A stretch of DNA of 33,712 nucleotides from Candidatus Bathyarchaeota archaeon (GTDB taxonomy: Archaea; Thermoproteota; Bathyarchaeia; Bathyarchaeales; Bathycorpusculaceae): contig JAOZGY010000018.1 of NCBI GenBank assembly GCA_026015145.1, positions 1 to 33,712 on the forward strand, given 5' to 3'. The notes beneath the pieces were generated by a model. It was not told where the DNA came from and searched no databases. It was given only the letters and a program-made list of their open reading frames with translations. Positions 30,202 to 33,712 of this stretch are shown here, one piece after another (position 1 is the first letter of the stretch; each line of letters starts with the position of its first letter). The translations under genes were made by a program, and so were the position numbers.

Positions 30202-30780
30202 TTACCCTGGAGAAGCAAGCTTTTTGAGATCTTCAGCTCCTTCTGAATATCCTGATGCAATAAGAATGTCTCCATTATGTATTCTTGTGAAGGGTTTGGG
30301 ACGTAGACTCTTGTTATTTCTTTTTATTGCTAAAATCCACATACCTGTGTCTTCGTGTACGCGAGCTTCTTTTAGAGTTTTATTAATTAAAGGAGAATTA
30401 TTAGTAACACGTGCTTGAGTTACTGTTTCTTCAGCTTCACGAATAGCTATTTTTAAAACAGGATGCGGTTCAATACCTCGTAAAACAACTTCAGCCATTT
30501 CTGCGGCAGCATCAGCAATTTTTTCTGTTGCTACTCCCAATCTAATTAAACCTAAAAAGCCCGAAGCATCCTCCTTCTTGAAGTTACTTGTTAATGCAAG
30601 AAGTTCGAATTCGGTATGTAATTCATCCATATGTTCCTCTAAACGTTCTACTTCTTCAGCTAGTTCTGAACTGTTTAGCATTAACGATGAGTAAGCCAGA
30701 TCTATCATTAATTCAGAAGTGTCTTTTAATTCAACAAAACGCTTTACAATCTCTTCAAATATTTTTTGATTTTTAGTCAT
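30202..30780 (-). CDS. PhoU-like/TrkA_C-domain protein
   Basis: ELKDTSELMIDLAYSSLMLNSSELAEEVERLEEHMDELHTEFE (PhoU-like); C-terminal ILAIKRNNKSLRPKPFTRIHNGDILIASG (TrkA_C). Confidence 0.85.
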   Translation of the reverse strand: MTKNQKIFEEIVKRFVELKDTSELMIDLAYSSLMLNSSELAEEVERLEEHMDELHTEFELLALTSNFKKEDASGFLGLIRLGVATEKIADAAAEMAEVVLRGIEPHPVLKIAIREAEETVTQARVTNNSPLINKTLKEARVHEDTGMWILAIKRNNKSLRPKPFTRIHNGDILIASGYSEGAEDLKKLASPG

Positions 30781-30785
30781 CAGCT

Positions 30786-31394
30786 TTAGTACTCCAATTT
30801 CTTTAGTTTTGCTTCTGCTAATTCCTTAAATTCTTTAATCCCCAAAGGGGCACCTCTGGTTATTACTGTGTCTCCAAGAAAAATTCCTTCAGTTTCAACT
30901 GGATCTAGGATCCAATCCTTATTTCTACGTATAGCAATTATGTCAACACCCATTCTTGCGGCTAGATCAAGTTCGAGAATCTTTTTTCCAATAAGTATTG
31001 ATCCTTCTTTTATTGTTGCTTTCATTAGACGTTCTTCTACTTTTTCAAAGATTTCGCCAATAATGGGATGAATTCCAATTTTGCGTGTTACAATTGCAGC
31101 TATATCTGCTGCGGCATCAGAGATCTTATCAGTAGCTGCAGCTACAGTAGAAACTCCTATCAAAGTCTCAGCATCCCGCGCATCTCTCGCCGCAATCATA
31201 ATCTCAATATCTAGCAAATAAATCAGGGTGTCTATTCGAGCTTCTAACTCTAGCACGTCTTCAGCTAGTTCTTTGTCGTTAAACAAAGCAGCAGAATACG
31301 CCAGATCTATCATTAGCTCAGAAAGATTTTTCATTTCCAATAAAAGTTCGCTGACGGGTATAGGTTTGTATTCTATTTTTTCAAATTTGGGCAT
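30786..31394 (-). CDS. PhoU-like/TrkA_C-domain protein, paralogue of the adjacent gene
   Basis: EMKNLSELMIDLAYSAALFNDKELAEDVLELE; IIAIRRNKDWILDPVETEGIFLGDTVITRG. Confidence 0.85.
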   Translation of the reverse strand: MPKFEKIEYKPIPVSELLLEMKNLSELMIDLAYSAALFNDKELAEDVLELEARIDTLIYLLDIEIMIAARDARDAETLIGVSTVAAATDKISDAAADIAAIVTRKIGIHPIIGEIFEKVEERLMKATIKEGSILIGKKILELDLAARMGVDIIAIRRNKDWILDPVETEGIFLGDTVITRGAPLGIKEFKELAEAKLKKLEY

Positions 31395-31450: not shown

Positions 31451-32662
31451 TTAAGTTAACCCTAACATAAGCAGAGAAGCTAATAGAGCAATCGAAGTAA
31501 CAACGTCTGCAAACGAGCTCTCTACTGGGATAACAAAATTATCTGGATCTAAACCTTTCTTAAAAGTTAATATTGAAATCGAATAGGTCAACAGAACTAT
31601 TGCCAAAACTGCAAAAACATTAGTTAGAAAGAGGATTGAAATAATATTATATAGAGAAGAAAATGAAAACGGGGTAGTAAGTAACAAAGCCAAAAAAGCT
31701 AAGATAATAAACATTAATAATGACGCCCCCCAAGCACTAAAAATACTTTTTATATGGCGCTTCATTGAAGAGAAAGATGGCTGAAGCAATCCCAATGCAA
31801 GTTTTGTTGTTGCAGTAGAACCAATAACAGATCCGACATTTCCAATCATACCGATCAAAGCAGGATATATGATGTAAATTTCTTTTCTATTTTCAACAAA
31901 ATTACTTATTCCAATAAGAACCGTACCAGTTATATTTACCATTAAAGCAACTAGAATCATCGTAAAAAGAGATTCTTTTATAGTTTTAATAAAATCTGAT
32001 TCATGAAAGTTCTTAATAAAAACATAAATAGCTGTAGACAACACGGCTAAACTAAGTATAAGAAGGGCTAATTTTCCTAAGTCACCAAAGAAATACAAAG
32101 TTAATACTAAAACATAACATACAGTAATAAAGACATCAGAAATAGTAGACATTATTGGATAGACAACAATATCAGGATCAGATCCTTTTTTGAATGAAAT
32201 AAATGCAATATTTATTGTTATAATAGAAAGAAGCAAACCCATTGACATTGTTGCAATTACAACTAACAGGATTCCAGAAAAATCAACAATAGTAAGACCC
32301 CAAAACAATTGTCCAAAAACTATGGATATTAAACTTATTGTTGCGCTGGTTGCTAAAGTTAGAACAATGAGAGCTTCAATTAGCATATAAAAGGACGGCG
32401 TGTTTTTAAAAAAGCTAGGTCGTATGGTACCTAGATGTAAAGCTGTACTTAAGCGGCCACTAAGCAGACCACCAGTAACCCCTTTAGCACTTACAAGAGC
32501 CGGATAAAGCGCAATAGTCCACGGAGCAAGTTTGAAAAGCCCTAGGTATGAAGCGATTATAAAGCCTGCAAATAAACCCCCTAAACCAAAAAAATAAGCA
32601 ACCGAGGTTTCTTTAAGTAATCTAAAAAAGTTTTTTGAAACTCCTTCATAAGACAAATGCAT
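31451..32662 (-). CDS. MgtE/SLC41-type divalent cation transporter, two tandem MgtE membrane domains
   Basis: Internally duplicated membrane protein: YPALVSAKGVTGGLLSGRLSTALHLG and YPALIGMIGNVGSVIGSTATTKLALG; KKGSDPD and KKGLDPDN. Confidence 0.87.
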   Translation of the reverse strand: MHLSYEGVSKNFFRLLKETSVAYFFGLGGLFAGFIIASYLGLFKLAPWTIALYPALVSAKGVTGGLLSGRLSTALHLGTIRPSFFKNTPSFYMLIEALIVLTLATSATISLISIVFGQLFWGLTIVDFSGILLVVIATMSMGLLLSIITINIAFISFKKGSDPDIVVYPIMSTISDVFITVCYVLVLTLYFFGDLGKLALLILSLAVLSTAIYVFIKNFHESDFIKTIKESLFTMILVALMVNITGTVLIGISNFVENRKEIYIIYPALIGMIGNVGSVIGSTATTKLALGLLQPSFSSMKRHIKSIFSAWGASLLMFIILAFLALLLTTPFSFSSLYNIISILFLTNVFAVLAIVLLTYSISILTFKKGLDPDNFVIPVESSFADVVTSIALLASLLMLGLT

Positions 32663-32739
32663 CGTCTCCTCTTAAGAATTTCAAAGAAACAACAAAACGC
32701 AAAAAGGGAATTATGAAAAAGATAGAGAGGGCAAAGATA

Positions 32740-32935
32740 ATTACTGTTTTTTTATAAGTAGCTACCGCTGTTATAAGCTGAAAAAGAGTATAGTTTAAAG
32801 GGTAGTCTATGTTCAAAGGGTTCCCCTTCTAGACATTGGTTATTTTCGGCCATCCACAAGCACCTTACCTAAATTATTGATACTCGTGGGCTGCCAAACA
32901 CCACTTCATTTTGCACTCCTAAATATTTATTCAGA
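32740..32935 (-). ncRNA. Candidate structured leader RNA / ncRNA upstream of the MgtE-like gene
   Basis: Minus strand: AAGGG-GAA-CCCTT hairpin (32816-32828) inside GTCTA/TAGAC (32805-32834); GCC-CACGAG...CTTGTG-GAT-GGC stem (32849-32891); TATA-like AATAAATATTT near 32920-32932. Confidence 0.45.
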
Positions 32936-33010
32936 AATGGTTTGCTTTGCTTAAATAGATTTCTAAGATATCAAAATAGAATTAGAAGTCGGTATTCAAC
33001 TTGTTAATGC

Positions 33011-33712
33011 TTATTTTTTAATTGGTTTTGTTGGAGTGTAAGTACACCAGGGATCTTCAGCTAAATAATCTCCTTTTAGCTCTTTTGGTTCATGTAAATC
33101 ACCACAATAATCTATAAAATCACTTGAAAGCCCATAAGCTCTGGCTCTACAACCCCCACATAGTGCGCTATATTCACAATAACCGCATTTACCTTTAAGA
33201 GATTTGAAATTCCTTAAAGAGTTAAATAATTTGGAATTAAACCAAATATCTTTAAAGGATTTTTCTCTGATGTTACCTAGTTTAATAGGCAAATAAGGAC
33301 ATGGTGTTATTTCTCCATCTGGATAAATCCTGCAATAATATAATCCTGCGATACAACCACGAATCCACTGTCTCATATCTAATCCCTGATTACGAGCGAT
33401 ACGCATAAATTGAGGAGCACATGAAGGTCTTACATTTAAGTTATGATTTGATGTCTTAGCAAAGGTTGTTTTGATCATTTCTTCATATTTTTTAGGTGTT
33501 ATATCGCTCATCTTTGTACCTCTTCCAGTTGGTACTAAAAAGAAAAGGTGAAAATTCTCTACGCCCAAGTTTTCCGTAAGGGTCATAATGTCGTCTATTT
33601 CTTCATAATTTTGTTGAGTTACAGTTGTATTCACTTGTACCAATACATTATTTTCCCGCAGAACCTGAATAGCATTTACTGCTTTTTCCCAAGAACCGGC
33701 AACTGCACGAAA
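33011..33712 (-). CDS. Radical SAM/SPASM protein, Ahb (heme biosynthesis)-like; 5' end truncated by the window edge
   Basis: CIAGLYYCRIYPDGEITPCPYLPIKLGNIRE; CGYCEYSALCGGCRARAYG; DYLAEDPWCTYTP; frame stays open through 33712. Confidence 0.85.
   Translation of the reverse strand, partial: FRAVAGSWEKAVNAIQVLRENNVLVQVNTTVTQQNYEEIDDIMTLTENLGVENFHLFFLVPTGRGTKMSDITPKKYEEMIKTTFAKTSNHNLNVRPSCAPQFMRIARNQGLDMRQWIRGCIAGLYYCRIYPDGEITPCPYLPIKLGNIREKSFKDIWFNSKLFNSLRNFKSLKGKCGYCEYSALCGGCRARAYGLSSDFIDYCGDLHEPKELKGDYLAEDPWCTYTPTKPIKK

Follow-up and report, generated by a model that had tools for sequence, protein, structure and literature searches.

Overlapping small reading frames and a clade-level hairpin in the conserved leader of a Bathyarchaeota mgtE operon

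Towards the right end of the window (by which we mean the whole analysed stretch of 33,712 nucleotides, from a Candidatus Bathyarchaeota archaeon), a minus-strand mgtE gene is followed in its operon by two PhoU-TrkA_C genes (30202-31394), in line with the mgtE/PhoU-TrkA_C operon named by a sequence-only reading of this DNA. No CBS domain was found in the window MgtE (403 aa), and the PhoU-TrkA_C pair may supply the regulatory part missing here. Across the gap from mgtE lies a SPASM radical-SAM gene (33011-33712, partial); NirJ2 and AhbD (heme b synthase) were the top NCBIfam matches, neither of them reaching cut-off on this partial gene, and several relatives likewise have the end of this gene ahead of mgtE. 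The gap, given earlier as roughly 350 nt, measures 348 nt (32663-33010), and the GC-rich island placed within it at 32800-32920 is borne out, with 42-45% GC vs. 22-30% on the upstream flank, away from mgtE, and 27-38% on the flank next to it; the SD said to precede the mgtE ATG is present as AGAGGAG. What that reading left unmentioned are three small reading frames, ORF1, ORF2 and ORF3, that occupy the GC island and the T-rich stretch following it. The features of the locus are listed here in the order in which they would be transcribed:

32949..32964, minus strand: BRE/TATA promoter AGAAATCTATTTAAGC, an exact match in the window and a block in relatives
32916..32920, minus strand: SD1, AGGAG, 11 nt ahead of the ORF1 GTG
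32869..32904, minus strand: ORF1, cut short; GTG start, 11 codons (VVFGSPRVSII), then TAG
32841..32901, minus strand: hairpin 1, UUUGGC-AGC-CCACGAGUAUC / GGUGCUUGUGG-AUG-GCCGAA, based on fold z, conservation and model matches
32861..32865, minus strand: SD2, AGGTG, 7 nt ahead of the ORF2 ATG and within the 3' arm of hairpin 1
32752..32853, minus strand: ORF2, MAENNQCLEGEPFEHRLPFKLYSFSAYNSGSYL (MAENNQ...), corresponding to the 3' half of ORF1, with a 65-nt overlap with the start of ORF3
32805..32835, minus strand: hairpin 2, GTCTA-GAAGGG-GAA-CCCTTT...TAGAC, fold z -1.2, broken in congeners
32823..32828, minus strand: SD3, AAGGGG, 6 nt ahead of the ORF3 TTG
32646..32816, minus strand: ORF3, LNIDYPLNYTLFQLITAVATYKKTVIIFALSIFFIIPFLRFVVSLKFLRGDDAFVL, TTG start, 56 codons, ending 17 nt inside mgtE
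32677..32735, minus strand: T-rich tract of the ORF3 3' half, with several U4-U5 runs, a candidate archaeal terminator or attenuator
31451..32662, minus strand: mgtE, 403 aa, with two MgtE domain stretches by Pfam

For comparison, about 89 mgtE upstream regions were gathered; the named relatives are MAGs of Candidatus Bathyarchaeota, the closest congeners having mgtE products 74-79% identical, and because sister loci are kin, all locus counts given below overstate independence. The leader DNA of the window was recognisable nowhere except upstream of mgtE. A single genome (G018) was seen to hold four mgtE copies on contigs C100, C155, C48 and C107 (L035, L071, L072 and L091), at least three of which have the ORF1 overlap described below. 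The promoter had earlier been sought in a TATA-like AATAAATATTT (about 32922-32932); the conserved BRE/TATA is instead AGAAATCTATTTAAGC at 32949-32964, a form of the AGAAAyytATTTAAGC block that many genera share at the corresponding position ahead of mgtE. This position predicts a transcription start at about 32927-32930, a short way ahead of the GC island, and by comparison the predicted 5' end of the transcript would lie about 10-25 nt ahead of the ORF1 start.

The ORF1, ORF2 and ORF3 frames are the most widely conserved feature of the leader. ORF1 was located by SD1 alone (GGAG, 11 nt, GTG), which identified 35 loci; in 33 of them the frame continued without a stop beyond the following start codon, where 8.4 were expected under a Markov null, and it lay in phase +1 over that start in all 35. 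Most of the gathered regions have a leader made of a single such frame, which includes the ORF2 part. The usual product resembles VELEGSLxKALLKxCLWMGExxxSxEGGxDEASQQ, running past the downstream SD and ATG, and indels between relatives preserve the frame. The two exceptions to continuity are the window itself and its congener L024, in which the frame is cut by a TAG, so that the window ORF1 has 11 codons and stops in the loop of hairpin 1. Since continuity is lost in the window and one genus (g12) has no ORF1 at all, ORF1 is not universal. In the window, its 3' half survives as ORF2: a homologous frame was present in all four species of the window genus, and a GGNGTG-like SD2 site stands 7 nt ahead of the ATG in most relatives. 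The TAG (32869-32871 in the window) is in frame at the homologous place in L024, with different flanking codons, and the L024 mgtE stretch was likewise reported with one in-frame TAG. A reading of the TAG as pyrrolysine, rejoining ORF1 and ORF2, is unsupported, as no PylS was found above cut-off in the 91%-complete genome of the window. We also discarded MKWCLAAHEYQ, encoded from an ATG just past SD1, as a conserved product, because relatives lose that ATG and conserve the GTG frame instead.

The start that ORF1 crosses is that of mgtE itself at L030, L035, L039, L043, L064 and L071, and that of ORF3 elsewhere. At the place homologous to SD3, GAAGG(N)GA is conserved at most loci, and it serves as the mgtE RBS in L035, L039, L064 and L071. 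ORF3 itself begins with TTG in the window and its congeners and has roughly 40-65 codons across relatives. At 36 of 37 loci its stop lies no more than 20 nt from where mgtE starts, compared with 2.0 loci expected under the Markov null, and the other two frames, used as a second background, ended near the mgtE start at none of 36; the commonest stop positions relative to that start were +4 (ATGA, 11 loci) and -3 (10 loci). Stop and start overlapping or lying a few nt apart is the geometry of termination-reinitiation, with an overlap of 17 nt in the window; in several g12 genomes ORF3 ends at the mgtE SD. Both ORF1 and ORF3 are RBS-led frames kept open beyond chance. The second half of ORF3 is also T-rich: it is 53% T in the window, and over 47 loci the T fraction was 0.375 in the second half vs. 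0.23 in the first, with 35 runs of T5 or longer vs. 19 in shuffles. We observed in addition that a conserved MKLAN site opens mgtE at the six loci where ORF1 crosses the mgtE start and opens ORF3 at L025, L031 and L041; where it opens ORF3, mgtE starts about 150-185 nt later, a relocation of the start site within the gene family.

The arrangement is not confined to Bathyarchaeota. Five Brockarchaeota genomes have an acidic ORF, MGEKEETEGATDETHQH... or a close variant, lying in phase +1 over the mgtE start, so that it occurs in no fewer than two major groups of archaea; no overlapping leader ORF was seen in the 12 non-Brockarchaeota Thermoproteota mgtE loci examined.

Synonymous and nonsynonymous differences (S and N), counted from codons with a single difference, bear on whether the products of these frames matter. 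ORF1 had 61 S:112 N where 51.8 S were expected, almost no synonymous excess, and ORF3 had 81 S:133 N where 61 S were expected, a modest one, while the mgtE control (172 S:65 N, 75 S expected) showed strong purifying selection. The frames are therefore conserved much more than their residues, which fits a cis-acting role for ORF1 and ORF3, as judged from sequence comparison, better than it fits small proteins. The core of ORF1 is acidic (D+E 28% and K+R 8%, compared with 18% each in shuffles), and in most Bathyarchaeota this core lies about 20 codons into ORF1 unless an inner ATG is used. Part of that acidity is forced by overlapping signals, namely the letters of SD3 (GAAGG encodes EG) and of the start (ATGAA encodes DE); the part of ORF1 before SD3 has a smaller acidic excess, 72 acidic vs. 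45 basic of 432. For the same reason EGGQDEASQQ is weakened as a functional protein motif: SD3 and the ORF3 or mgtE ATG share its letters, and substitution there is near neutral.

The sequence-only reading had taken the island for a structured RNA, formed by two stems on the mgtE-sense strand, that might be a cis-regulatory element or an independent ncRNA. The GCC-CACGAG/CTTGTG-GAT-GGC stem is present on the minus strand, as hairpin 1, and it folds well (z -3.4, better than 199 of 200 shuffles), masking SD2 and the ORF2 start in the window clade. An alignment of 22 leaders from several genera, over TTTGGCAGCCCGCAA...CTGTGGA(CC/TG)GCCRAA, shows pairing in 97% of cells of its 11-bp core, against 22-41% in arm-slid controls. 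Covariation amounted to one double-sided cell among these 22 sequences, a level equalled by shuffles, the changes being one-sided and mostly G-U; because of this, the support for hairpin 1 in the aligned sequences is conservation, not covariation. A lack of conservation upstream of mgtE orthologues, which would have refuted the element, was not what the comparison gave: it delivered conservation, without demonstrating covariation. A model of hairpin 1 gave 23 strong matches (E < 2e-4) in 91 family genomes, all 23 directly upstream of mgtE and one per genome, which upholds the proposal of a cis element of mgtE and speaks against a free-standing ncRNA. Hairpin 1 is, however, absent from many genera that keep the overlapping ORFs, and in two congeners without it the leader's 5' half is gone, with ORF2, ORF3 and mgtE kept. 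Since it is always upstream of mgtE yet missing from many genera, hairpin 1 is a clade-level cis element, neither an ancestral core nor a free ncRNA. Genus g12 has lost ORF1 and kept hairpin 1. In the g12 leaders (L058-L076 and L084) we noticed that the 3'-arm TGTGGAC is complementary, at most loci, to GTCCACA just past the ORF3 start; third codon positions are invariant there, and a fold with two states is possible. L060 breaks this complementarity, and folding prefers hairpin 1 over the ORF3-start pairing in most of these leaders.

The other stem proposed, GTCTA...TAGAC, is likewise there on the minus strand as hairpin 2; the fold is unremarkable (z -1.2, with 26 of 200 shuffles as good) and its stems are broken in all three congeners (L022, L023 and L024). 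It covers SD3 and the ORF3 start in the window genome alone, so with unconserved stems it is ruled out as a conserved SD3 mask. The whole leader folds unremarkably as well (z -1.0), and single-sequence folds are mostly unremarkable too. No Rfam family matched at the gathering threshold, nor did any in a scan of 32640-33030 up to E 10, and on this ground we rejected the M-box (RF00380) and every other Rfam family. A structured metal-binding RNA as the core of the leader is thus not upheld, given no Rfam match, no real double-sided covariation and an unconserved hairpin 2, and it is weakened further by the many genera that keep the overlapping ORFs without hairpin 1.

The mgtE leader is real, conserved and cis-acting, and what is best conserved in it is translation, not an RNA fold. 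RNA structure is probably not the heart of it; leader-ORF control, with an optional hairpin, probably is. From the conservation of the frames we think it fairly likely that the translated leader sets mgtE output through overlapping upstream frames, with termination-reinitiation onto mgtE. Under such control, ribosomes on ORF1 would cross the ORF3 or mgtE start out of frame, lowering its use, and ribosomes aborting early on the acidic ORF1 core, or skipping ORF1, would leave that start free. Translation of ORF3 would then open mgtE by termination-reinitiation coupling and would shield the U-rich tracts from termination. Coupling by stop/start overlap is established in archaea, including coupled Haloferax pairs (PMC6728339), and transcription termination in archaea relies on U-tracts (PMC8716108). 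A second gate would come, in the window clade, from hairpin 1 masking SD2; ribosomes translating the 11-codon ORF1 would open this hairpin. The signal would most likely be Mg2+ or the state of the ribosome. We infer that Mg2+ may be sensed at the leader, possibly by ribosome destabilisation of the mgtL/mgtQ kind. The more specific version, that the acidic ORF overlapping the start of mgtE or of the coupling ORF sheds ribosomes at low Mg2+ and so frees mgtE in both Bathyarchaeota and Brockarchaeota, we regard as doubtful.

Three other accounts of the same features must be weighed. A small archaeal riboswitch, responding to Mg2+ or another ligand or bound by a protein, might have hairpin 1 as its aptamer or switch, with the frames secondary; the hairpin would mask SD2 and ORF2 or, in g12, compete with a GUGGAC-GUCCAC pairing at the ORF3 start. 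Its core is paired in nearly all cells of the alignment, including those of g12 without ORF1, its strong matches are confined to mgtE leaders, the sequence round its internal loop is near-invariant, and the g12 GUCCAC past the ORF3 start complements the 3' arm, outcompeting it in some genomes. That hairpin 1 is small for an aptamer, lacks convincing double-sided covariation (the single cell that shuffles equal), goes with mostly unremarkable single-sequence folds, and is missing from many genera, including the two congeners that keep ORF2, ORF3 and mgtE, makes us consider a riboswitch unlikely.

Alternatively, the products of ORF3 (and ORF1) could be small proteins with a function of their own, such as a short membrane peptide that acts on MgtE. 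The slight synonymous excess and a strong transmembrane-like stretch in the window's ORF3 (hydropathy peaking at 2.7 over a 19-residue span) are in keeping with this, and bacterial Mg2+ transporters are regulated by the small peptides MgtR and MgtU, as cited in PMC8092293; but the residues are nearly unconstrained compared with those of mgtE, hydropathy peaks vary from -0.3 to 2.7 among genera, and loci at which mgtE itself begins at the ORF3 start site have no ORF3, leaving small proteins improbable in our view. Just as improbable is that ORF1 and ORF3 are fossils of earlier mgtE starts, left by stepwise relocation, so that coupling would exist without regulation. Such a history would explain why the ORF3 start is the mgtE start at L030, L035, L039, L043, L064 and L071, and why ORF3 looks like a detached mgtE N-terminus; fossils, however, should gather stops, whereas ORF1 has stayed open, and in phase +1, across distant families and Brockarchaeota, and there is strong conservation of promoter, SDs and motif.

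Regulation by nested upstream frames remains our preferred reading, and it would make this leader a test system for archaeal ribosomes sensing Mg2+ through nascent acidic peptides, in archaea that are uncultured but abundant. It lets one ask whether overlapping uORFs regulate archaeal genes as they do in eukaryotes, and it illustrates that an intergenic region flagged as structured RNA may turn out to consist largely of coding sequence that had escaped annotation. Bacteria are well known for leader-peptide control; our search of open-access papers turned up no such leader for an archaeal Mg2+ transporter.

Among known systems, the M-box (ykoK, RF00380) is likewise a 5' leader element of Mg2+ transporter genes, including mgtE; hairpin 1, in contrast, is a single stem without M-box architecture. 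In ermC-type translational attenuators, a hairpin masks the next SD and has a short ORF in its 5' arm, and the window clade, with ORF1 in the 5' arm of the SD2-masking hairpin 1, resembles them, although the archaeal leader has no known stalling peptide or inducer. The ATGA or short-distance stop/start of ORF3 and mgtE resembles that of the coupled Haloferax pairs (PMC6728339), with the difference that here the partner ahead of mgtE is a leader ORF whose sequence is not conserved and which another ORF overlaps out of frame.

Closer in function is mgtL, the leader peptide of enterobacterial mgtA, which acts by intrinsic ribosome destabilisation with an EPDP motif. It works via Rho and stem-loop switching (PMC11282234), and acidic nascent peptides destabilise ribosomes both in mgtL (PMC11282234) and in mgtQ (PMC8092293). 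Like mgtL, the archaeal ORF is a short leader ORF of an Mg2+ transporter gene and is arguably acidic near its N-terminus, the Brockarchaeota form being acidic at the start and then continuing into a Pro/Arg/His-rich tail; unlike mgtL, it overlaps the downstream start out of frame, the transporter is MgtE, and there is no sequence relationship. The mgtQ of the Salmonella mgtCBRU operon is a small acidic ORF with an RBS-masking hairpin, tied to translation of the transporter (PMC8092293). The archaeal leader shares with it a small acidic ORF beside the start of an Mg2+ transporter gene, linked to an RBS-masking hairpin, whereas mgtQ has 8 codons, is intergenic, belongs to an unrelated lineage and has no described out-of-frame overlap with the mgtB start. 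To our knowledge archaea have no Rho. If the Mg2+-sensing reading is true, the leader would be a convergent counterpart of mgtL and mgtQ that works without Rho, the sensor being translation itself.
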